A stretch of 64,000 nucleotides of DNA, taken from contig CAXKVR010000021.1 in assembly GCA_964058845.1 (NCBI GenBank), forward strand, positions 1-64,000, read 5' to 3'. Positions 11,384 through 64,000 of the stretch are shown in pieces (position 1 is the stretch's first letter; the number at the start of each line of letters is the position of its first letter). The stretch is from Carex sylvatica. Lineage: Eukaryota; Streptophyta; Magnoliopsida; Poales; Cyperaceae. The position numbers and the translations under genes were made by a program. Under the pieces are notes generated by a model, which saw only the letters and a list, made by a program, of their open reading frames with translations, was not told the DNA's origin and ran no database searches.

Positions 11384-14300
11384 ATGAAAGAATTATTGAG
11401 ACAAATGTTAACGGGCAATAATGTGGAGACTTCTAATGAATTTGCGGCAAATCAGCAACCACAAGAAGAAGAAGCTATAGTGGCCCCAAAAAAGAAAGCC
11501 CTAACCTCTCCAGTATGGAAAGAGTTTAATAGAGGAGATACAAGTGGAAATTGATGGAAATATAGTGATGCGTGTGAAGGCTACATGCAAGCATTGTGCT
11601 AGAGCATTTGATGGACCAAGTGACCGAGGGACTACTCAATTGAAGAACCACTTGAAAACTCACACTGCTGGTTCACGTCAAAAATTACTACAAACATCCA
11701 TGAAGGGTGTTGATAGTACTTGTACTCTTAGTGCATACAAGTATGATGAAAGTTTGAGTAGAACTAAACTTCTACACATATTTATTTTGCACGAGTATCC
11801 TTTTACTATGGTCGAACATCTGGAGTTCGTTGATTTTGTTAAATAATATTTATTTTGCATACAAGTAGAATCATGTTTGGTTAACGTTTCAATGCTGAAA
11901 TTGCTCCAATTTACTTCCCACATTTACTGAAAAGCAAACTTCCCTCCATCAACAAATAATATTGCACATATGGTTCAATTTCTCTCTAGCTTCCTAGAAA
12001 GAGGCCATCATAATGGCATAAAAGACAAAATTCAATGCACTACACTATTACAAGAACAAGTTCCAAAAAGAAGAGTTCATGGGCTAAATGGTAAATCAAG
12101 TGTAAAGACGGTTAAATAATTAAAGACCAAACTTAATGCAAGATCACAAGCTTTATTGACACTTTTCTAATTTAGGTTCCACAAGCAATATCATAACTCG
12201 TGGAGGCAGCCCCGAGGCAGCAAATTACATGTTCTAGCATAGAAAGCCAAAAGGCAGGGGACACCATAATCATCGTTCATAGGATACGGATATTTTTTGG
12301 CATCCTTGGTGAATCAGAAGAAATTTCATAAGACGCAGTGACAGTGGCCACTATCATACCACGTTCACCAACACCTTAAAGTACATAAAAATGTCAAACT
12401 ATATATATCCGGGTAAGTATTTGGTTTTTGCAGCTGGCAAGGTCTTCGGCCTGAATCTTCGCATAATCTAATTTGCAATCATGCAAAACTATTCCTTTTT
12501 ATGTCCATATACGTAGCCCAAAAGAAGGAAAGATAATACAAGCTTTTTCTTTTTCTCGGAGCTTAAGCATGGTTGGGCCACAATCTTCAGCTAATATTTT
12601 TTTGAATCAAGGAGTAATGTTAGAGAAGAAAAAGAGGAATCTCCTTCATGAAAGAGCGAGCCAGTTGCTTTTTCTTGATAGAAGAAGTATAAAGCTAGTG
12701 GATTGTTTGAACGGAAGTTGGTTTTGCGAAGAAGTTTTCTATGCTCGGTCTGAGGAAAGTAGATAAGCCATTTCTCTCTCAACGAAGAAGAAAGTAGACC
12801 GAAAAGCAGAATAGGACGACGAGGCTACCTAACGTTTTGGAAGTAGGCAAGACAGGATATTGAAGCGTAAGGAATCGAAGCAATCGGACATTCACGTACG
12901 TAGTGAACAAGAACAAAACTTTCCTACCTAGTCAACAGATACCAATTCTAGCGACCGAGTCCAAGATTTCAATAGGTAGGTTTTTCACTCCACTCATCAC
13001 CTGATACTCCTACTTAACTTGCCAACCAATGAAAGAAAAAACCTCGTGTTGCCGCTCGCTTTGCCGGCGCATCAAACGTTGAAAAAGGCAAAAACCAAAG
13101 GTGCGTACAATGAAAAACAAACTAGAAAAAACCCATACATTACAGTACCTAAAATATTACCATATCACACTCGTCTTTCGAATGTCCGTCCTTTTCCTTA
13201 AAGTCCTGAGTTACTCATACAAGACAAATCATAGGGGCCTATGTAGAGGAGAAAAAGAAGTTGTATGATTTGTTTGCTTCAATGTCTTGTCGAGTGAGTA
13301 CAATAATGGACTTATGGACCTCAAGGCAAAACAAATCATACCTATGTGTGACAGCCCATTTCATTGGAGATGATTGGACCATGCAAAAAAGAATTATTAA
13401 TTTTATGCACATGGGTGAAAAGCACACAGGATTGAATTTGAGCAAAACATTTGTTAAAAACATGACGGGTTGGAATCTTGATCGGAAACTATTCTCTTTG
13501 ACCTTAGATAATGATTGTTCTAATGATGTGTGTTAGAGATGTTGTGAATCATTTGGCGGGAGAGAATGAATTGGTTTGTGAAGGTACGTATTTTCATTTG
13601 AGATGTGCAACTCATGTTATTAACCTAGTGGTGCAAAATGGGTTAAAAGGGATAAAAAGTGCAATCGAAAATGTTAGAGAGATTGTTTTGTTGGTGAAAA
13701 GTTCTACTTTGCAGCGAGAGGAATTTGAGAAGGCCGCAAGAGAGTATAAACTGAACATAAGAAGGGCTCTATCCACTGATGTAGTTACTCGTTGGAATTC
13801 AATTTATATGATGCTTAGAGATGCCTTACACTACAAAGATGCCTTTAAGCGATTACAACGTGTTGATCCGGTAAAATTTCATAAGTGCCCGACAAGTGAT
13901 CAATGGGATGAAATTAGAGTACTTTGTAAATGTCTAGAGGGATTTTTCAATGTCACAAGAGTCCTATCAGGTACCTCCTATCCAACTGCAAATTTGTTCT
14001 TTGAAGAATTTTGTGAAATTAAATTGCAAATTTCTAAGTGGTGCAATGGGAAAGATGTCCGAGTACGTACAATGGCTCTATTAATGAAGGAGAAGTTTGA
14101 GAAATATTTGGGGAAAATGAACATAATTCTTGCTGTGGCTTATTTTTTAGATCCACGTTACAAATTTAAAATGGTGCAGTGTTACTTTCCCCAAGCTGAA
14201 GAAGAGATGAATACATTTTTGAGTGCCATAAAATCAATTTATGAAGAATATGCTTTAAAGTATTCTCTTCCTCTAGATGACACTCAAAATGTAGAAGAAC

Positions 14301-15230
14301 AATCTTCTCGAGTTGGTAAATCTGCTGTTAATGAAGGTCAAATAAAGAAAAGAAGATTTGATCAGTTTATTGAGGAAAACACCTCTGTTGAATCACCTAA
14401 AACGGACTTGGATCAATACATGGCAGAAAACGTACTTCCATGGGATAAAAGGAATGGTCCCTTTGATATATTAGGTTGGTGGAAATTTAATGGATCGAAG
14501 TATCCCATTTTATCAAAGGCTGCACGAGATGTGTTGGCGATCCCTGTCTCAACTGTTGCGTCAGAATCTGCATTTAGTACCGGAGGCAGAGTTGTAGATC
14601 CACATCATAGTTCATTAGACCCCGAATCAATTGAAGCTTTAATTTGTGCTCAAGAATGGATCAGATATTCTAAACCAGGTATGTTTCTTTGATTTCCCAA
14701 TGTCTTATTAATTACTTACAAAATATTTTATTATGAAATTAAATTTTTATTGTTTTGTCAAAATGACATTTTATTAACAAATAATACTGACAATTGTAGA
14801 TGCTCGTCAATCTCTTTTTAATGACATTGAGGAGCTTGCTGGAACATCACATTCTACATTAGTATCAAATGGAGAAGGTATATGTTTAGAACATAACATT
14901 CTATTTTGTCATTTCTCTGTACTAATCTGATTACAATGCTTATATATATTTATAAGCATATTTCTAAGATTTACATTTACTGAGATAACTAAGTTATAGT
15001 AAGGTTAAAATGACCAGAGACGTAGTGTGTGAGCTACTGACCAATGAAATAATTTGCTCAGGGACTTGGAGGTAAGATTACAATGGCAATTATACTACAT
15101 ATGTATCTAAAGATTATGAAGGAATCATGTGCTTGCCTTGAAGCATTCTCATGATTGTGTTTTTTTTTCTAATAGGAACTTCATCAAACCTTTTGATACC
15201 ATGAGAACAATGAATGATGCTTCAGCTTGA
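11384..15230 (+). pseudogene. hAT transposase (BED finger, RNase-H-like core, C-terminal dimerisation domain), disrupted
   Basis: This is a cut-and-paste transposase of the Ac/Tam3 type. The first exon-like part (from ATG 11384) leads into a BED finger: SPVWKEF near 11505, then after a one-base frame change CKHCARAFDG and QLKNHLKTH (11590-11660). Next comes the usual ILHEYPFTMVEHLEF block, ending in a stop at about 11845. After a foreign segment the gene resumes near 13225 (VEEKKKLYDLFASMS). The first catalytic Asp is in IMDLWTS (about 13310) and the second in LTLDND (about 13505). A frame change at about 13530 fits loss of one GT from a short GT run. The main frame 13511-14692 has the CxxH motif (RCATH), the RW motif and the E-containing SESAFSTGG block with the dimerisation domain. 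Small 3' exons follow: about 14802-14877 (AG/GT-flanked) and a last one ending near 15230. Confidence 0.9.
11850..13222. other. foreign insert inside the hAT transposase, partly organelle-like
   Basis: Transposase similarity stops at about 11847 and resumes at about 13223, at what is normally contiguous protein sequence. The intervening DNA differs in character. From about 12420 to 13210 it is more GC-rich and resembles plant mitochondrial intergenic DNA in style (gaaagtagaccgaaaagcag, cttgccaaccaatgaaag, ccgctcgctttgccggcgc). The part at 11950-12420 is not recognised. Identity as mitochondrial DNA is inferred from composition and phrase style only. Confidence 0.45.
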
Positions 15231-20403: not shown

Positions 20404-22941
20404 CTACTTATGCCTTGCCGAGCTGCTATTGCTCAGAACACTTCTAACACTTCTACTGGTGTCCAAATGATGGCTATCAATGAGAGCAGAAAGTGTGATT
20501 TTACCACATTTGCTGTTGTCAAGTCTCTCAAATTGTTCGCATATTAGCATCACATCCTTTTCCGTTATCTTCCCCATCTCCTTTAGTTTATACACCACAA
20601 ACTCTGATTTTCTGAAAATAATCCACAAAACAAAAAAAAATTGCATCATGTACCACAAAAAAAAATTACCAGCAACAAAAACAGATAAGAGGACTTGGGG
20701 CCAAAAGGAGGGTAAAGATTTTAACAGAGCAGTTTTGGCTTCATACAATGCACAAACCATATGCAAAGCTATTTTGATTCTACAGTCCATGCAGTGCATG
20801 AAGCCAAAACTGCTCTGTCAATCTCTTTACTCCAAAAGGCTAATTCGGTGACAACGAAATTGGTGCTCAAAAGTCATCGGTCGGTCGTTCTCTTTATTTG
20901 AATTGAACCAAAAGTAAACTAATTTGGTCATAATATTCCCAACATGAGCAAAGCAACTCTTGGGGGACCCGAAATTGGTTCCTCAAATGATTGGTCCCGG
21001 AAAATTATTTATCATCCTATTTTGTCATTAAAGATAAGGATTCTATTTTTTTGTCCTAATCAGTGCAATCTCTATCAATTACTTTTGCCACATACTTTTC
21101 AAATTGTAGAATAAACGGATACTATATGAGCTCAAATTTGGCACTATGACAACGAAATCATTAAATATGTGGGTCACAAAGCTGCAATAATTTTGCAAAT
21201 CAGATTCAAGCAAAACTTTAATAATGTTGTAATTTAGTAAACCATATAAACTAATTAAATAAAAAGGCGAGACTTATTGAACTTACGTGACAAATCCATT
21301 ATGATCAATATCAGCTTCTAGGAACTCAGAAATCGTCATGTCTCTCGACAAAACAAAGTTTGCAATCTTTCGATGCCTCTTTTCGATTCTCATCTCTGCC
21401 AAGTACAGAAATGCCCTTGCAACCGTAAGAGTTGAGACCAACAACCAAATTGACGCAAATACCCTTCCCGGCATTGTCTTGAATGCCTGGTCACCATACC
21501 CAACTGTCGTAACTGACATAACAGATAGGTATAGTGCATCGAGTCCGTTAAGGTTTTCAATGAAGCAGAGAACAACTGCACCGATGCCCACACAGAGGAC
21601 AACCACACCAAGAGCAAGACCAACCTTGAGACGGATTCGCATTCGGCCCTTTTTGACATCTACTATGTACCGGCGTGCCAGGTCGTGCGCATGAGGGTGG
21701 TTTGGTTTTTTAGCTGCTGTTAAGAGAAGAGATTCCTAGAGATTCCAGAAAGTAGCATTTCAATTTAAACAAACAGCAGTAAATTAACACAACTATTGGA
21801 AAACATAATTATCATCCACCAATTTTATACAAATTTATATTAAAAACAATAGTCACATTGAATGGTAAGTGGTAAGAAATTGTTGATATTTACTGGTAAC
21901 AAATTAAAGTATGGTAACACGTACTGTTTACCAGAGATTCAAAACATGTCTGTTCTGATACAATGAAGCAGCAAATGAAAAGCAAAAATTTATAAAGTTT
22001 GCACCTTTTGGTCCTTTTCTATTACTTTAGAATCTTTCAAAACTAAAAGGCAAGTGATTAATGTGGGCAAAATATTTAACAGAGCAGTTTTGGCTTCATG
22101 CAGCGCACATACTATAGATCAAAACACCATTCGTGCACTGCATGAAGCCAAAACTGCTCTATTAAAGTCTGTACCTGGTACAATCCTAAAATCAGGATAC
22201 CTGGAGATCAAGAACAAAGGAGACCATGCCAGATAGCAAAATATCCACGAACCCGAACCCGATAATCACAAACAGAATCGAGAAGATCTTCGCTGCAGGT
22301 GTGGCAGGCGTGATATCACCGTATCCAATTGTGCACATGGTGACAATACAGAAATACAAAGCATCTACAATCGGATGCGTCGAATCCCCCGTAGCATAGA
22401 AATTATCCGGCGCGATCGTGAAAACAATCACGCCGAAGCAGAGGTAACATGCGAGGTATATGAATGCGCTTCGTACCACTGCAGGCCCCACAGGTGCCAT
22501 GTCAGCATGTTGGGTTTTGGAATCTTGTTGCGGGAGAGAAGAATTGTTGAGAGGGGACATTGAGGGTGCGGTGCGGCATCGGTGGAGGTTGTTAAGGTGA
22601 TGATTGTTCTTGCATGAGAAGAAATTGTCATCGGCGGAGGAGGGGAAGAGAGGAGAATGAGGGGTGTGGGGAGAAGGAATGGGGAGGTTAGGGTTAGGGT
22701 TTGTAGGTGGTCCGTCGTCTGAAGGAGAAGGAGAGAGACCAAAGATTAGAAGAGATTTTAACGAAGGAGAGGAAGGGTAAGGAGAAGAGGGGAGTTCAGA
22801 GTCTTCAGGGAGAGGGGTAAGAGAGGAGGAGAAGAAAGGGGTGGAGGAAGGAGAAGGACAGGGAGGAATGGTGATGGCGTGAGAAGGGGAACGGGAAGGT
22901 GGGGAAGAGGAGAGGAGAGGTTCTGCTGTGGCCGAAGCCAT
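20404..22941 (-). CDS. TPK: two-pore potassium channel (TPK/KCO family)
   Basis: The exons are 22941-22201, 21735-21287 and 20611-20404, all with GT/AG sites and consistent phase, giving 465 residues. The product is a potassium-selective channel. TPKs usually sit in the vacuolar membrane and some members elsewhere; location here is not decided. Residues 1-150 are Ser/Pro-rich and low complexity, longer than in many family members. RCRTAP at 121-126 resembles the N-terminal 14-3-3 binding site. The first transmembrane segment is about 155-178, the first pore filter is GYGD 206-209 (CTIGYGDITP) and the next helix is 219-241. The second pore unit has helices about 285-306 and 338-360 with GYGD 326-329 (VTTVGYGDQAF). 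EF-hand 1 (loop D389-E400) looks canonical. EF-hand 2 (loop D428-A439) lacks the acidic last residue, so calcium binding there is doubtful. Both introns carry a copy of one MITE. The gene appears intact. Confidence 0.93.
20709..20831. mobile_element. MITE in TPK intron 2, with 8 bp target duplication
   Basis: The terminal inverted repeats are about 24 bases long and extend inward through agcagttttggcttcat on the left and atgaagccaaaactgct on the right. The element is flanked by perfect 8 bp repeats CCAAAAGG at 20701-20708 and 20832-20839, which suggests a hAT-type MITE. It is the same family as the copy in intron 1. Confidence 0.8.
22062..22178. mobile_element. MITE in TPK intron 1, related copy
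   Basis: It has the same inverted arms as the copy in intron 2 (taacagagcagttttggctt and, on the right, gaagccaaaactgctctatt) around a loop of about 40 bases. A clear target duplication could not be found; the outer ends are degraded. The right arm ends within about 25 bases of the intron 1 donor. Confidence 0.7.
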
Positions 22942-43784: not shown

Positions 43785-45086
43785 TCAGAACAGATCCGAC
43801 ATGAGCCAGCTGGTTAAGGATTCTAGATCATTGCCATTATTTATATTCATGCAGGGGATCCTAAAATCAACAGTAGAATCACAATAAGACCATTCCTGTC
43901 CCAAATCCATGTCCCAATCCAGCTTGTCCCAATCTAAGAGGTTACTCGTGTCAGTTTGGGCCGAGCCCACCTCCTCCTCTTGGCCCAATTGGGTTCCCGT
44001 AGGCTCGCTTTCTCTCTCTTCATTTACCATATCTGCCCCACTCCCTCTCTCCTCATTCAATATCCTCACTTTCTGTTGGACCCAACCCTCACTGCCCTCA
44101 CTGCCACACAGAAGCATTGCATCCATCTCACTGCCAAGTGGGCCCGGGCTTAGGAGGCCCCTGATCATCTCATCTAAAATTGATTCAATACCTGGATCTA
44201 ACACTACGCTGAACCCCTCCTCGCTGTTAGATTGTGAATCAGCGAGCAGAACTTTGGTTTCTTTCGTGTTTTTTTCCTTCATTTCTTTCGTTGTGTTGTT
44301 GTTATTGGATTTCTTCTTTGAACCACGGTTGGTGTGCTTGGCCTTCTTGTGTCTGCCTGTTTCTGTGGATGTTGGCAAGTTGACTTTCAGGGAATCAGAG
44401 TTGGTGGGAGAGGACTTGTGGTTAGTGTCGACCCGTCGTCTGAGGTGTGAGTTCCAGTAGTTCTTTATCTCATTGTCTGTTCTCCCTGGCAGGTGATCTG
44501 CTATCTGTGACCACCTACAGAGACAAGAAATTAAGTAACAATTTTGTCAGATATACGGTCAAGAATTTAAATATATATTAAAGGAAGCTAGATTTATATT
44601 AAATATTTTGTTTCATGCATGCACAGAATTTTGTGTAAATTCAGTTATATATTAGTGTATATCGTGATTATATTTAAATGTGTTAATGCAGGATCGATAT
44701 TATTGTACATGTCACAGTTATCTACTGAATACTCTTACATCCATTATTTTATCGAAATATTATATGGTGATATTGTAAATTTCTTTTTTATGATATATTC
44801 ATATAATACAACTTGCAGCTGAATTACGGTTTATAATATATAAAGTGTGTGAAAAGAAAACAAGCGGCAGAGAAGATCTGTTATAACCAGAATGATTGGT
44901 GTCAGTCAGAATCTCAAATAATTTATGATAAATGATTCAGATCTCTTCTTTGTTTTCTCTTGTTCTTAAATTTTATAATAAATGTGTCCAAATATTATAA
45001 TCACCATTTGCACACGTTTATTGCATAGCACATGACTAACTGATCCGCGTACAGATTTGAATCCAAAATACTTGTACAAGATGCAA

Positions 45087-50550: not shown

Positions 50551-51007
50551 TTTAACACTGATATTTCATAGCTAGAAATTGGTGGACCGAAGTAAAAAAA
50601 AAATTGGGTCTCCAACTGAATTGGCGGACTAATATCTGGTCTGCCAATTCAATTGCGGACATGGTAAAAGCCTAAATTTTTGAAAAATAAAGTTATTTAG
50701 TTTATTTGTTTTTTTTTCGGGGGTAGGACAGGGCTTTTCCTAAAAAATGTAGGGATAATGACAGAAAATATACTCGCTAAAAAATTAAAAGGAAGGATAA
50801 GAAATTGCTAGAAATTACAAAAAAAAAAATACAAAGTGAAACCCATATGGATATATAATTGGAGGCAATAAGACCAAGGATGGATAAAAAGATTCGTTTA
50901 GAAAGAGCACATGTAAACAAAAATGTTATAATTCAATCATAATTACGTAAGCATGGGTAATCGGTTACCCTATAAAACAAATTGGCATCACCAGTGTATA
51001 TATATAT
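50551..51007. other. intergenic region
   Basis: No gene was recognised. The part at 50560-50660 has short inverted phrases (aattggcgga, gtctgccaattc). Confidence 0.4.
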
Positions 51008-51280
51008 TTTTTACTATTTATTAAGCCATTTTGAAAATTGCTAATCCAACAGTGGCTTAACAAAACAGTAAAATCAGAAGTCACCGTTGAATCAGTGATT
51101 TTCAAAGTGGCTTAATAAATAGTAAAAAAGTTCAGAAAAATAGAAAATTTGGTCTCCAAGCACATTTCAATATAGATATCACATCTAACGGTTCAGATCG
51201 ACCATTTAGACATTGAGAACACAAAAATGAGTTATAAGCATATATGGGGATATGCTTATATAAGCATAGTAGCCAACCTC
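51008..51280. repeat. truncated foldback element (right part)
   Basis: This matches the centre and right arm of the complete element at 53378-53803: a cagtggcttaac centre, then ttggtctccaagcacatttc, then tagtagccaacctc. The left arm is missing and is replaced by a TA run. Confidence 0.8.
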
Positions 51281-51301
51281 TATGTATGTATCTATATATA
51301 T

Positions 51302-52335
51302 GAGATGAACTATGGTGCATTGCAATGTATAGACTCTTTTGTACGTTGGACTATAAATCACTGGATTTAAAGTTCAAATGACTGATCCAAACTGTTCATA
51401 TTGTTCTCCATATTCATATGTGTTTGGCAAGCTTCTAAATAGCTAGCTATAGCGGTTTTGGACCCAAAAAGCTAACTACGGGCTAAAACTGCGCTAATCA
51501 AGCTACGGCCGCTATAGCGGTAATAGCGGTCCGCTATAGCGCGTATTGCGTAGCGACAATAGCGGTCCGCTATGCTACATGGGTTATGATTTTGCAAAAT
51601 TATTATTATTATTTTTTTTTTTTCTGAAAACATGATTTTGCAATTTTAATGGGCCTTAATGTCTAGATTGGTTTTTTTTACTTTATCAAGCTATATCAAT
51701 ACAATGGAACATGTGCGGGCTATACCGCTATATCAATTACATTTTGTATCATGCATTAATATATGGTAGTGGTATATTTTGAATATAAAATATATCGATA
51801 GTTTTTGAATTAGGGATATTTTGAATGATAATTTGAACTTTGTATTGGTTTAATATGAATATTAGAACTTCTTAATTAATTTGATATTTTTTTTCTTGAT
51901 GAGACATTTTTACTATTAATAGAAATATAAAATATAATTTTTGAAATTAAAAACGCTATTTATAGTAGCTTTCACTATAGCTCCGCTATTCGCTAAAGCT
52001 TTTTTTTTTCATCTTTCCGCTATACCTCTATAAACGCTATTTAGAACCTTGGTGTTTGGAGATCAAATTTTCCATTTTTTTTAAATTTTTTACTATTTTT
52101 TTAGATTTATTGAAAATTGCTGTTTTTAGATAAATCTGAACCATAAAAAAATAGCAATTTTCAATAAATCTGAAAAAAGAATAAAAATTTCCAAAAAATG
52201 TAAAATTTCGTCTCCAAATACATATTAATATGAAGAACAAGATTAACAGTTTGGATTGGTTATTTGGACTTTAATTTCGGCAATTTATAGTCCAATGTAC
52301 AAAAGAGGCTATATATTGCAATGCAACATAGCCCA

Positions 52336-52339
<4 letters not shown>
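51302..52339. repeat. foldback element interrupted by a nested MITE
   Basis: The left arm (gagatgaactatggtgcatt, then tgtacgttggactat) is mirrored at 52255-52339 (atagtccaatgtacaaaaga, then atagcccatctc). Without the 624 bp nested element and one target-site copy it would be about 406 bp, the size of its neighbours. Confidence 0.8.
51428..52051. mobile_element. nested hAT-type MITE, 624 bp, with 8 bp target duplication
   Basis: The ends are CAAGCTTCTAAATAGC and the complement of CAAGGTTCTAAATAGC (one mismatch in 16). It is flanked by GTGTTTGG at 51420-51427 and 52052-52059. The interior is rich in gctatagcgg and ccgctatagc palindromes near both ends, and has no coding capacity. Confidence 0.9.
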
Positions 52340-52371
<32 letters not shown>

Positions 52372-52777
52372 GAGGAGGGATCCACTTACAACAACTTGAA
52401 AGTTACAACATCTTACAACATCGTTTTTTTTTCATTTTCAAAGTCTAAATCGTCGATCCAAACCGTTAGATATTCAATCTATATTAAAACATGCTTGCAG
52501 ACCAAATTTTACATTTTTTGAAATTTTTTTGCTATTTATTAAGATGGGTACAAAATCGCTGTATTTATTAAAATTCTGCACCATTAAAAAACAGCGATTT
52601 TGTACCCATCTTAATAAATAGCAAAAAAATTTCAAAAAATATAAAATTTGGTCTGCAAGGATGTTTTAATATAGATTGAATATCTAACGGTTTGGATCGA
52701 CGATTTAGACTTTGAAAATGAAAAAAAATGATGTTGTAAGATGTTGTAACTTTCAAGTTGTTGTAAGTGGATCCCTC

Positions 52778-52780
<3 letters not shown>
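52372..52780. repeat. large foldback element (core family A)
   Basis: The outer arms, gaggagggatccacttacaa and its complement, are near perfect over the whole length. The core carries ttacattttttgaaattttt and atttattaagatgggtac, mirrored, with a short centre. Confidence 0.9.
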
Positions 52781-52815
<35 letters not shown>

Positions 52816-52832
52816 AGAGAGAGAGAGAGAGA

Positions 52833-53230
52833 GTAAGGCTACGCTATGCAAATTCAACGGGCTGTTTTAATTCGCGCTCATATCTCTAGTTTCGAAGTCC
52901 AAATAGCCGATCCAAATCGTTAGGTGTTTAATCTATATTAAAATGTGCTTGGAGACCAAATTTTATATTTTTTGAAATTTTTTTACTATTTATTAAGATG
53001 GTTTGAAAATAGTTATTTTTTAATGGTGCAGGATTTTAATAAAAACAACGATTTTCAAACCATCTTAATAAATAGTAAAAAAATTCTACAAAATGTAAAA
53101 CTTGGTCTCCAAGCACATTTTAATATAGATTAAACATCTAACGGTTTGGATCGGCTATTTGCACTTCAAAACTAGAGATATGAGCGCGAATTAAAATAGC
53201 CCGTTTAATTCGCGAAGTAGCGTAGCCTTA
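52833..53230. repeat. large foldback element (core family A)
   Basis: The outer arms (taaggctacgctatgcaaat, then gcgctcatatctctag) are mirrored at 53165-53230. The core is as in the neighbours. It is flanked outward by GA/TC runs and TA runs that are themselves inverted. Confidence 0.9.
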
Positions 53231-53252
53231 ATCTCTCTCTCTATATATATAA

Positions 53253-53312
53253 AATCAAATATCTGAATGGTGCAGAATTTTTTATATCAAGTGATTTTCT
53301 ATATATATACAA
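53253..53312. repeat. isolated centre of a foldback element
   Basis: It has only the central part of the element at 53836-54235 (aaaatcaaatatctgaatgg, then tcaagtgattttcta), bordered by TA-rich sequence on both sides. Confidence 0.75.
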
Positions 53313-53377
53313 ACATATATGTATACATATATATATATGTATACATATATATATATATATATACACACACATATGTT

Positions 53378-53803
53378 GAGGTTGGCTACTATGCTTATAA
53401 AAGCATATCCCCCACATTTGCTTATAACTCAATTTTGTATTTTCAATGTCCAAATGGTCGATCTGAACCATTAGATGTGTTCTCTATATTGAAATGTGCT
53501 TGGAGATCAAATTTTATATTTTTCTAAATTTTTTAACTATTTATTAAGCCACTTTGAAAATCGCTGATCCAACGGTGGCTTAACAAAACAGTAAAATCAG
53601 AAGCCACTGTTGGATCAGTGATCTTCAAAGTGGCTTAATAAATAGTAAACAAATTCAGAAAAATGTAAAATTTGGTCTCCAAGCACATTTCAATATAGAG
53701 ATCACATCTAACGGTTCAGATCGATCATTTGGATAGTGAAAACACAAAAATGAGTTATAAGCATATGTGGGGATATGCTTATATAAGCATAGTAGCCAAC
53801 CTC
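53378..53803. repeat. large foldback element (core family A)
   Basis: The outer arms (gaggttggctactatgctta and its complement) are mirrored. The core shares aaatgtgcttggagatcaaa with its neighbours, and the centre has ccaacggtggcttaac. Confidence 0.9.
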
Positions 53804-53835
53804 CATATATGTTTGTATATATAGAGAGAGAGAGA

Positions 53836-54235
53836 GTAAGGCTACGGTGCTATGGGTTGCATAGAGGACTACGGTGCTACGGCTCAATATTCAAATTTTC
53901 AAAATCCTAACAGTCGATTCGAACCGTTCATCTTGTTCTCCATATTAATATGTGTTTGGAGACCAAATTTTATATTGTTTGGAAATTTTTCACTATTTTT
54001 TTAGATAGGTAGAAAATCAAATATCTGAATGGTGCAGAATTTTTTAGATCAAGTGATTTTCTACCTACCTAAAAAAATAGTAAATTTTTTTCAAAAAATG
54101 TAAAATTATTCTCCAAACACATATTAATATGGAGAACAAGATGAACAGTTCGGATTGACCGTTAGGATTTTGAAAAGTCGAATATTGAGCCATAGCACCG
54201 TAGTCCTTTATGCAACCCATAGCACCATAGCCTTA
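53836..54235. repeat. large foldback element (core family A)
   Basis: The outer arms (gtaaggctacggtgctatgg and its complement) are mirrored, with the core shared with the neighbours and the centre aaatatctgaatggtgcaga. Confidence 0.9.
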
Positions 54236-54284
54236 CTATATATATATATATATACACACATATATACACACACACATATATATA

Positions 54285-54688
54285 GAGATAGGCTAATATC
54301 AAAACATTTGTTCCTGGACTCAGGAACAAACGGTTCGGTTCTCTAATTTGTAAAGTCCAAACAGTCGATCCAAACCATTAGATATTCAATCTATATTAAA
54401 ATGTGTTTGGAGACCAAATTTTATCTTTTTTGGAATTTTTTTACTATTTATTAAGATGGTTTGAAAATCACTGTTTTTCAGTGGTGCAGAATTTTAATAA
54501 AAACAACGATTTTCAAACCATCTTAATAAATAGTAAAAAAATTCTAAAAATTATAAAATTTGGTCTCCAAACACATTTTAATATAGATTGAATATCTAAT
54601 GGGTTGGATCGACTGTTTGAACTTTGCAAATTAGAGAACCGAACTGTTTGTTCCTGAGTCCAGGAATAAATGTTTTGATATTAGCCTA

Positions 54689-54692
<4 letters not shown>
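54285..54692. repeat. large foldback element (core family A)
   Basis: The outer arms (gagataggctaatatcaaaa and its complement) are mirrored. The core is nearly the same as in the element at 52833-53230. Confidence 0.9.
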
Positions 54693-54744
<52 letters not shown>

Positions 54745-54945
54745 CGTAGATACATATATATGTATCTACGTATATACATATATATGTATATACGTATATA
54801 CATATATATGTATCTACGTATATACATATATATGTATCTACGTATATACATATATACATATATACATACATATACATATATATGTATCTACATATATACA
54901 TACATATACATATATACATACATATACATATATATACATTTATAT
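54693..54945. repeat. TC run, TA run and TATACGTA/TGTATC minisatellite
   Basis: A run of tc, then ta, is followed by degenerate tandem units of about 26 bases (atatatgtatctacgtatat style). These are themselves largely palindromic. Confidence 0.85.
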
Positions 54946-56255: not shown

Positions 56256-57651
56256 ATGGAAGTCATGAATGGAATACGTAAGGCACAACGGTCACAAGGG
56301 ACAGCAGCAGTACTCGCAATTGGCACAGCTACCCCGCCTAATTTCATTTACCAATCTGAATATGCCGACTACTATTTTTGTGCTACCAAGAGCGAGCACC
56401 TTAAAGAGCTCAAGGAGGAGTTCCAGAAAATCTGTAAGATAAATGCCAAGAGCAATCAGTTTTCATATGTTTTGTCTGAGTGCCCAAAAATCTACAACTA
56501 AAAAGATAAATGCCTAAATGAGAAAATGAACAAAGTTAGCATCATGCACGCCAAAATATTTCTGGAAAATTAAATTCTTGTTACTTTGTACTTAATTCTT
56601 TGTAGGTGATGATACGAAGATTCGTAAGCGTCACTTTCACTTGACAAAGGAAATGCTTGAGAAGCACCCTAAGATAACTTCACATAAGGATCAGGAATCA
56701 CTGGACGCCAGGCAAGACATTGTGTATGGTGAGGTGCTGAGGCTTGGTCTCCAAGCAGCAGAGAAGGCCATCAAAGAGTGGGGACAGCCAAAGTCAAAGA
56801 TCACTCACCTAGTTTTCCACTCCACAACTGGCAGCATCGACATGCCTGGTGCTGATCGAAGGATGTTAGAGCTTCTTGATCTTCCTTCCTCTATCAAACG
56901 GTCAATGATGTACCACCAGAACTGCTCTGGTGGTAACACAGTGCTTCGTCTTGCTAAGGATATTGCTGAGAACACTCGTGGCACACGTGTCCTTGTTATA
57001 TGCTCCGAAATCACCTTGACGGCCTTCCGTGGGCCATCCAAGGGACACAACGACACTCTCCTACCTCAAGCAATTTTTGGTGATGGAGCAGCAGCTGTTA
57101 TTGTTGGTTCCGAGCCAGATCTGTCAGTTGAGTGCCCACTTTACGAAATCATTTCAGCTCTCCAAACTATTCTTCCCGGCACAGAAGATGCATTCATTGG
57201 CCACATTAGGCAAGATGGCCTCACGTTGTACATGTCACCTCCTGCACCAGAGTTTATCTCTAGCAGCGTCGTCGATACTCTCTCAGAGATAGTCGAACCA
57301 CTCGGGATTATTACCGACTGGAATTCAGTCTTTTGGGGAGTGAATCCCTGTATGCCGGCTATCCTAGAACAAGTGGAAGCTGAGTTGGCACTAGACAAGG
57401 AGAAATTGAAAGTGACGAGGCATGTGCTTTCTGAGTATGGAAACATGATGAGTGGGACCATTTTTTTCATGCTTGACGAAATGAGAAAGAAGTCGGTTGG
57501 AGAAGGAAAGAGGACGGTTGGAGATGGAATGGAGTACGGGGTTCTGTTGGGATTTGGGGCTGGAATCACCATGGAGACAACCGTCTTACGTGCCAATGCA
57601 AGTATTTCTGTTGCATTAGAGACCAAAGAAGATGATGTCTGGGTCATTTAA
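56256..57651 (+). CDS. divergent type III polyketide synthase (chalcone synthase superfamily) with His-to-Asn in the catalytic triad
   Basis: The exons are 56256-56433 and 56606-57651, split inside Cys60 as in nearly all plant CHS genes, giving 407 residues. Family members condense an acyl-CoA starter with malonyl-CoA in the cytosol. It begins [15 protein letters not shown], and AIGTATPPN is conserved. The nucleophile Cys164 (alfalfa CHS2 numbering) is kept as Cys166 in [11 protein letters not shown]. Asn336 is kept as Asn339 (EYGNMMSG). Phe215 (Phe217) and Gly256 (Gly258) are kept. The catalytic His303 is Asn306 (FWGVNPCMP instead of the usual IAHPGGP). Thr197 is Ala199, Ser338 is Met341, Phe265 is Leu267, Gly211 is Pro213, and the GFGPG loop reads GFGAG (Ala378). 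The frame is intact, with a C-terminal extension. Chalcone synthase activity is unlikely; the true substrate is unknown. A MYB gene lies about 10 kb upstream. Confidence 0.93.
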
Positions 57652-59827: not shown

Positions 59828-60349
59828 TCACATCTCCATTTCTCTCCCCTTATTTCTCTTCCCGGCTCCTCTTTTCCTCATAGAATGCCTCCTCTTCAAC
59901 TCCAAGACAAGTGATCCCGTGTCGCTGTTCATAACTCCCTTGAGCGACTCACGAACTTTCTCGACAGGGAAATTAAGCACTGCCATCGAGCCACGTATGG
60001 CGAAAGCCGCTTGATCATAAGCTAAAGCGGCTGCTTCGGCACTGTCAAATGTCCCGAGCCAAACTCTGACTCCATGTCTAGTAGAATCTCTTATCTCAGC
60101 AGCGAATTTGCCCCAAGGCCGTCGTCTCACTCCGCGATAACACCGACCTTTCGGGCTAGTGGTGGAACTTTCTTCACCTTTTTCGTCTTTTGGGGAGCGA
60201 GATGCGGCCTCTGTTTCTTCTTGTTCTTCTTTCGTCGGTCTGGGGCTCGTCTCCATGGTTGCCAATGTGTAAAGGAGCATCATCTCATCGGAGTCATTTG
60301 GATTGAAAGGGAGAGGATTATAATCCCCAGAGAATTGCAGGAAGTCCAT
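59828..60349 (-). CDS. AP2/ERF transcription factor (ERF1-like, group IX)
   Basis: A single exon of 173 residues, without introns as usual for ERFs. It is a nuclear factor expected to bind GCC-box-type sites. The N-terminus is acidic (residues 18-62, Glu/Asp/Ser-rich). One AP2 domain spans about 70-128: [20 protein letters not shown], then [20 protein letters not shown] and [11 protein letters not shown]. The Ala and Asp at the AP2 positions typical of ERF rather than DREB proteins are present. After the domain, VRESL and a basic [12 protein letters not shown] block match the C-terminal motif of ERF1/ORA59-type group IX members, which act in ethylene, jasmonate and defence signalling. The role here is inferred from family. 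The start fits the first in-frame Met. Confidence 0.93.
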
Positions 60350-62602: not shown

Positions 62603-64000
62603 CTATGGACGAAAGATATCCACTAGACCCATCTTGTCACATAGTCTCGACAAATCTAACGAACTAAGCCCTTTAGTGAGGCAGTCAGCCACTTGCTCTC
62701 TAGTAGCTACATGTCCCAGCTCAAGTAGTCCGCTATTCAGCTTTTCCTTGATGAAGAATCTGTCGATCTCCACATGCTTGGTCCTGTCATGCTGCACAGG
62801 GTTATTAGCAATGCTAATAGCTGACTTACTGTCGCACCACAGCTTCATTTGTGCCCCTTGGTCCATCTTGAGCTCCACCAACAGAGCTCTCAACCACATC
62901 ATCTCTGCAACACTTAAAGCCATGGCCCTGTATTCTGCCTCGGCTGTGGACCTCGCAACTACCGACTGTTTCTTGCTCTTCCAGGAGACCAGATTGCCTC
63001 CTACAAACATGCAATATCCAGACGTGGACTTCCTATCATCGGCACAACTAGCCCAGTCTGAATCACAGTATCCCTCAATATTCAAATGCCCATTCTTACG
63101 GAAAATCAACCCCTTCCCTGGTGCACTCTTCAGGTATCTCAGGATCTGGTACACAGCATCCATGTGACCCTCCCTAGGGTTATGCATGTAGCGACTCACC
63201 ACACTCACCGCAAAGGAGATGTCAGGGCGAGTGTGGCTCAAATAGATCAAGCGACCAACTAACCTCTGGTACCTTTCCTTATCAACTGACTCTCCTGCCT
63301 CAGCACTCAGCTTGGACTTTTGATCAATAGGGGCCACCGCAGGCTTGCACCCTAGCATACCTGTCTCTGTAAGTAAATCCAGCACATACTTCCTTTGAGA
63401 TAAGACAATCCCCTCTGCACCGCGAGCTATCTCAATCCCAAGAAAGTATTTTAGTTGCCCCAAGTCTTTCACCTCAAACTCCTTACTCAGTCTCTCCTTC
63501 AGTGATGCAATCTCACCCTCATCATCACCAGTGATAATCATGTCGTCCACATACACTGCTAGCATCGTAATGTGAACGCCACGTTGCCTGAAGAACAGTG
63601 TGTGGTCTGCATTGGTTTGCCGATATCCCATGTCTACCATAGCCCTCCTAAACCTGTCAAACCAGGCTCGAGGAGACTGCTTCCGCCCATAAAGAGATTT
63701 CTTGAGTCTGCACACCTTACCCTCCGTTTGTTTCGTGCCAAAACCCGGTGGGACCTCCATGTACACCTCCTCCAACAACTCACCATGAAGGAAGGCATTC
63801 TTCACATCAAGCTGATGTAACTTCCACCCCCCATTCGCTGCTAAGGAAACAAGTGTCCGCACTGTACTCATCTTCGCCACGGGTGCAAAAGTCTCATCAT
63901 AGTCGATACCATACGTCTGACTGTACCCCTTTGCCACCAACCGGGCCTTGTAACGCTCAACCCGACCCTCTGGGCTTTGCTTCACAGTGAAAACCCACTT
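62603..64000 (-). CDS. copia polyprotein, reverse transcriptase and RNase H (partial, runs off the window)
   Basis: One uninterrupted frame of more than 460 residues runs from the right window edge to the stop at 62603. It begins inside the reverse transcriptase (KWVFTVKQSPEGRVERYKAR style). It then has ARLVAKGYSQTYGIDYDETF, QLDVKNAFLHG and the catalytic YVDDMIITGDD, then LKYFLGIEIARG. The RNase H part has YCDSDWASCADDRKSTSGY, STAEAEYRAMA and KHVEIDRFFIKEK. The stop is followed closely by the polypurine tract and LTR. Gag, protease and integrase would lie beyond the window. The clean frame suggests recent insertion. Confidence 0.93.
   Translation of the reverse strand, partial: KWVFTVKQSPEGRVERYKARLVAKGYSQTYGIDYDETFAPVAKMSTVRTLVSLAANGGWKLHQLDVKNAFLHGELLEEVYMEVPPGFGTKQTEGKVCRLKKSLYGRKQSPRAWFDRFRRAMVDMGYRQTNADHTLFFRQRGVHITMLAVYVDDMIITGDDEGEIASLKERLSKEFEVKDLGQLKYFLGIEIARGAEGIVLSQRKYVLDLLTETGMLGCKPAVAPIDQKSKLSAEAGESVDKERYQRLVGRLIYLSHTRPDISFAVSVVSRYMHNPREGHMDAVYQILRYLKSAPGKGLIFRKNGHLNIEGYCDSDWASCADDRKSTSGYCMFVGGNLVSWKSKKQSVVARSTAEAEYRAMALSVAEMMWLRALLVELKMDQGAQMKLWCDSKSAISIANNPVQHDRTKHVEIDRFFIKEKLNSGLLELGHVATREQVADCLTKGLSSLDLSRLCDKMGLVDIFRP

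Follow-up and report, generated by a model that had tools for sequence, protein, structure and literature searches.

In plants, the Cys-His-Asn catalytic triad of the type III polyketide synthases (PKSs) is described as extremely conserved in a survey showing 226 sequences (PMC5004622), and other accounts also present it as conserved (PMC8133574, PMC5667535). In alfalfa chalcone synthase (CHS), whose numbering is used here, Cys164 is given as the loading site, and the replacement of His303 by Ala, Asp, Asn, or Thr is reported to abolish malonyl-coenzyme A (malonyl-CoA) decarboxylation, while replacement by Gln does not (PMC6274091). Natural loss of the triad is not unheard of, since four rice family members without triad residues (PMC7312121) and a major cluster of fungal type III PKSs carrying H303D and N336S (PMC12559476) have been reported. 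Here, we describe a type III PKS gene of the sedge Carex sylvatica, found in a 64,000-nucleotide stretch (the window; positions 1 to 64,000 of contig CAXKVR010000021.1), in which the triad reads Cys164-Asn303-Asn336. Judged from sequence comparison, the gene belongs to a conserved subfamily that has probably changed its function rather than decayed.

The encoded protein resembles CHS (alfalfa CHS2; rice 4yjy and Freesia 4wum) in its Pfam domains, predicted fold, Cys164, Asn336, Met137, and some of the dimer contacts. Both chalcone/stilbene synthase domains were recognized (PF00195, E 1e-94; PF02797, E 2.7e-48), and a CHS-like thiolase fold is predicted for P0001, a database relative with 90% identity. 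In contrast to CHS, the group to which it belongs has His303 replaced by Asn, Lys55 by Glu/Asn, the changes F165S, A166G, G211P, F265L/V, S338M, and P375A, and a C-terminal tail with a D-D-x-W motif. The original prediction, made from the DNA letters alone, had placed Asn at position 303 with Cys164 and Asn336 kept, and the alignment, in which these codons were located, bears this out together with the Ala197, Met338, Leu265, Pro211, and GFGAG that it had also named. Across the CHS cavity and GFGPG loop, S133, T197, G211, F265, S338, and P375 are all altered in the window copy. The gene had further been called intact, which holds insofar as it is full length without internal stops, but only once an intron is removed, as one open frame is not enough. 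The splice site assumed in the model search also fits the paralogues C448, C176, C18, and C99. The features of the gene are as follows:

56256..57651, plus strand: type III PKS gene with two exons, encoding 407 amino acids without internal stops (ATG at 56256, stop ending at 57651)
56256..56433, plus strand: exon 1, residues 1-60 with the last codon split; carries Glu at CHS position 55
56418-56420, plus strand: Glu at CHS position 55 by alignment, where CHSs have the CoA-tunnel Lys55 (tunnel role as given in PMC11093982)
56434..56605, plus strand: GT..AG phase-1 intron splitting the Cys60 codon
56606..57651, plus strand: exon 2 with the stop, encoding the remainder of Chal_sti_synt_N and Chal_sti_synt_C
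56923..56925, plus strand: Cys166 (CHS Cys164), codon TGC, context MYHQNCSGG
57343..57345, plus strand: Asn306 (CHS His303), codon AAT, context FWGVNPCMP
57442..57444, plus strand: Asn339 (CHS Asn336), codon AAC, with the Met at position 338 close by
57628..57648, plus strand: C-terminal tail EDDVWVI, with the D-D-x-W motif

To find other sequences with Asn303, as the original prediction had proposed, we relied on alignment of proteins from protein and profile searches, the best 120 rows of each being listed out of 2129-2300 matches, with members inside 90% clusters not displayed in the database listings. A paralogue and five database proteins were found. The second genomic copy, on contig C448, has 84.7% protein identity to the window protein and 97.8% to P0003, and the database relatives (P0004 from Rhynchospora pubera; P0001, P0003, P0008, and P0009 from JGI contigs) have 75-90% identity, the nearest among the matches listed being P0001 (89.7%). 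Below these five, identity falls to about 60% for ordinary CHS, although some over-long models rank between by score. The seven members form one clade with 100/100 support across several trees; its stem is long (0.38-0.74 changes per column), and identity to 47 PKS rows outside it is 54-60%. They appear to represent a subfamily known to date from the sedge family. No Carex protein of this clade appears in the 120 rows that each search lists, which is no proof that Carex entries are lacking, given the undisplayed cluster members; Carex proteins of another PKS group do turn up in the search for relatives of C176. The canonical CHS of the genome is 93.9% identical to one of Carex rostrata, 88.3-90.8% to those of Rhynchospora, and 89.8% to that of Eleocharis, with up to 88.3% for Juncus proteins and 87.2% for two further Carex proteins, values that, for this single gene, point to a sedge (Cyperaceae). 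The two-copy subfamily with relatives elsewhere was absent from the original prediction, as were the loss of Lys55 and the short conserved tail. Full-length P0001 and P0003 lie on contigs of 1,600 and 1,412 bases, respectively; since these cross the exon junction without an intron, the relatives of both genomic copies would seem to come from spliced transcripts (cDNA). P0009 has intron-like residues at its start and looks genomic.

The Cys-Asn-Asn triad is found in 7/7 clade members, and His303 in all 134 other PKS rows among the matches listed (of 148 listed proteins, 5 belong to the clade and 9 were set aside as over-long or fused models). Motifs were counted in all 201 fetched proteins, including those from the search of the C176 group: FWxxH occurs in 195, the 5 clade members have Asn in place of its His, and the segment is missing from the P0164 model. 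A single C-to-A change converts a His codon to AAT, so an assembly or sequencing error at codon 303 could in principle produce the window sequence. The identical residue in the separate contig C448 and in 5/5 close database relatives rules this out through independent copies, and we give such an error a negligible chance.

Selection on the two genomic copies was compared over 402 codons. The window copy and C448 differ at 163 nucleotides (45/17/101 at the three codon positions), with dN 0.078, dS 0.440, and a ratio of 0.177 (bootstrap confidence interval [CI] 0.12-0.25; YN00 ratio 0.22), against a benchmark of about 0.5 or more if one copy had drifted neutrally since the split. Both Asn303 copies are thus under purifying selection. 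With P0004 as the outgroup, changes split about evenly between the window copy and C448 (20 versus 26, P 0.46), and in comparison with P0001 the window copy has slightly more of them (19 versus 13, P 0.38; 20 versus 12 and 18 versus 12 with two other outgroups). Seven replacements, including R42C, P104L, and R236C, are found in the window copy alone, where the other members all agree; therefore, some relaxation of selection on this copy is possible. One explanation of the locus goes further and sees a decaying paralogue that lost its triad under relaxed selection on the way to becoming a pseudogene. These replacements would fit it, as would the fate of another PKS copy of the genome, C128 (137790-139048), which is decayed, with several stops and frame breaks. 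However, both Asn303 copies keep full-length frames, the upper limit of the ratio (0.25) lies below the benchmark of roughly 0.5 for neutrality of one copy since the split, and the same Asn is present in 7/7 members that have diverged to about 75% identity. Pseudogene drift, which, together with absent transcripts, had been named beforehand as an outcome that would undo the prediction, is disfavored by the ratio and the conserved clade, and we consider decay very improbable.

Among the 231 columns with conservation of 97% or more across the 134 rows, 23 belong to an active-site/CoA-tunnel set and 208 to the rest; 6/23 versus 136/208 are kept throughout the clade (Fisher P 0.0004) and 10/23 versus 40/208 are changed in all its members (P 0.014), P values that serve as a guide only because the site list was compiled by hand from papers and the CHS structure. 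Remodeling is thus stronger in the active site than elsewhere in the protein. The clade has the fixed changes Q161H, F165S, A166G, G211P, L214I, L267M, S338M, and P375A, along with a stretch in which MSPPAP replaces LLKDVP. The residues K55, R58, and K62 are reported to line the CoA tunnel of quinolone synthase (PMC11093982); in the clade, Lys55 has become Glu/Asn in 5/5 rows with exon 1, and positions 58 and 62 are variable. Gly256 and Met137 are retained, as is E192 in 7/7 members, while Phe215 is kept in 5/7, with Leu in C448 and P0003. The D-D-x-W tail occurs in 7/7 clade members and is confined, among the 201 fetched proteins, to the 5 that belong to the clade; it has low confidence in the predicted model of P0001.

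We tentatively favor, at somewhat less than an even chance, a neofunctionalized plant type III PKS subfamily that is putatively a non-elongating Cys enzyme. Such proteins would retain the body of the thiolase fold along with the nucleophilic Cys and the oxyanion Asn, having lost His303 and the CoA-tunnel lysine. With Asn at 303, malonyl-CoA decarboxylation would be impossible and no polyketide chain would be extended, which we infer because H303N is reported to abolish decarboxylation in alfalfa CHS and Lys55 is lost. Instead, a preformed acyl or polyketide chain may be loaded on Cys166 and then transferred or hydrolyzed, the two Asn side chains acting as oxyanion-hole donors and the acyl donor being independent of the CoA phosphate grip. 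Some described systems offer partial parallels: (i) ChlB3/CerJ have a ketosynthase-III fold and carry out Cys-based acyl transfer rather than chain extension, although their triad is Cys-His-Asp and the clade has Asn at both 303 and 336, triads being compared by description (PMC9573744); (ii) in the KS0 (ketosynthase-type) domains of modular PKSs, loss of the active-site His is read as non-elongating, but these are type I PKSs of algae with His to Ser, so that the case is one of analogy only (PMC4661987); and (iii) the fungal H303D/N336S cluster is likewise a natural group that has, as a whole, retained the Cys and not the triad, with other residues and in another kingdom (PMC12559476).

Several points weigh against a non-elongating Cys enzyme. 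The alfalfa His303 mutants are described as still binding CoA, in an account that, as far as it covers them, has no word on a change of Lys55 (PMC6274091). CerJ, a KSIII-like acyltransferase, is reported to need its His, and its H295N variant lost malonyl transfer (PMC9573744); such transferases therefore also use His, and the Asn303 proteins have none at either 303 or 336. A catalytic His relocated to position 161 was considered and rejected, since His161, present in 7/7 clade members, also occurs in 13/18 proteins of a sedge group that keeps His303, which leaves no specific compensation. As 256/409 alignment columns are invariant within the clade anyway, the retention of Cys and Asn336 gives catalysis weak support. 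The R42C, P104L, and R236C of the window copy, where the rest of the clade does not vary, count on the same side.

One of the two other functional explanations dispenses with catalysis. Type III PKSs are dimers in which Met137 of one subunit reaches the active site of its partner, and the clade protein could be a catalytically silent subunit that pairs with canonical CHS or another PKS and tunes the output, the D-D-x-W tail serving as a docking motif. The residues D96, D136, M137, P138, H257, and R259 are kept in 7/7 members, and D96, D136, H257, and R259 are given as dimer salt-bridge positions (PMC11093982). The loss of both Lys55 and His303, the tail in every member, and the presence of canonical CHS genes in the same genome would fit such a role. 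On the other hand, interface positions differ in the clade (281, alfalfa Lys, is Asp/Asn/Ser, and 146 is Glu or Arg), Cys164, Asn336, and E192 are kept in 7/7, and the consistent interior remodeling (P211, M338, and A375 fixed) would be unneeded by a pure scaffold. Overall, we regard a silent partner as unlikely, yet a serious contender. The second explanation is a PKS that still decarboxylates, slowly or in a new way, with Asn303 and Asn336 as two hydrogen-bond donors and the other changes compensating. The kept Cys, Asn336, Gly256, and Met137, Phe215 in 5/7 members, and the predicted CHS-like fold are consistent with this; positions 197 and 338 are also altered in the active 2-PS and ALS, and an amide can serve at 303, since alfalfa CHS with H303Q is reported to keep decarboxylation. 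However, H303N is reported to abolish this activity in alfalfa CHS (PMC6274091), the CoA-tunnel Lys55 is lost, and Phe215 is Leu in C448 and P0003. A still active PKS therefore seems rather improbable to us. Returning to the non-elongating Cys enzyme, its loss of polyketide growth and of the CoA grip could be taken one step further: the clade may consist of His-less Cys-Asn-Asn acyltransferases or hydrolases, or of counterparts of a chain-length factor that steer plant PKSs through heterodimers and the D-D-x-W tail, a proposal that we hold as possible but with considerable doubt. Both options that the original prediction had offered, a new reaction and a non-catalytic role, survive.

Other PKS copies of this genome also depart from the triad. 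C176 (9523-10908) has Gln303 (FWIVQPGA) with Cys164 and Asn336 kept, and His303 is present in 17 of its 18 database relatives (P0149-P0166), the P0164 model lacking the segment. These relatives, a sedge "stilbene synthase-like" group from Carex, Rhynchospora, and other contigs, are with C176 likewise non-CHS PKSs of the same plant family; unlike the clade, they have Lys55 in 17/18 and no D-D-x-W tail. C176 joined the Asn303 clade (96/87) in just the first tree, which carried a warning of long branches. This kinship was rejected, as the two formed separate, fully supported groups once the 18 relatives were added and C776 was left out; in that tree, Gln303 was seen in C176 alone. The trees do not fix how the deep groups branch. 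On C776 and C744, one exon-2 protein is found in which Ser replaces Cys164 (YHHGSHGG) alongside unchanged His303 and Asn336.

The surroundings of the window gene do not suggest a biosynthetic gene cluster: the neighbors looked at comprise an ion-channel protein, a Myb-domain exon, an AP2 gene, and transposon genes, and no other pathway enzyme was recognized among them. A neighborhood shared with C448 was likewise rejected, because outside the gene the matches are limited to repeats and two short upstream stretches. Upstream of the PKS gene, a diverged repeat family lies in both orientations at 51003-54816 and also flanks the C448 copy on both sides, and there is a simple repeat at about 54.7-54.95 kb. 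The remaining features are:

13511-14692, plus strand: C-terminal part of a hAT transposase
22192-22941, minus strand: ion-channel domain protein, by its look part of a two-pore potassium channel
43785-44546, minus strand: Myb-domain protein exon, about 12 kb upstream of the PKS gene
59828-60349, minus strand: AP2-domain (ERF-like) open frame, about 2 kb downstream of the PKS gene
62603-63985, minus strand: open frame reading, by eye, like a copia-type reverse transcriptase/RNase H

Rfam gave 0 matches across the window.

In the literature searched, we found no description of a conserved plant clade with H303N, which is no proof of its absence from print. "Cys-Asn-Asn" occurs in none of the 20 papers listed out of 76, searches on Cyperaceae PKSs and Rhynchospora CHS gave nothing relevant by title, and, among the papers searched, H303N together with "synthase" appeared in one review (PMC6274091). 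Within a single genome, variants with Asn303 (C21, the window contig, and C448), Gln303 (C176), and Ser164 (C744/C776) stand side by side. A natural subfamily that lacks the His under purifying selection is a ready-made test of the role of this residue, and the clade also offers a test of the route from condensing enzyme to transferase or subunit.
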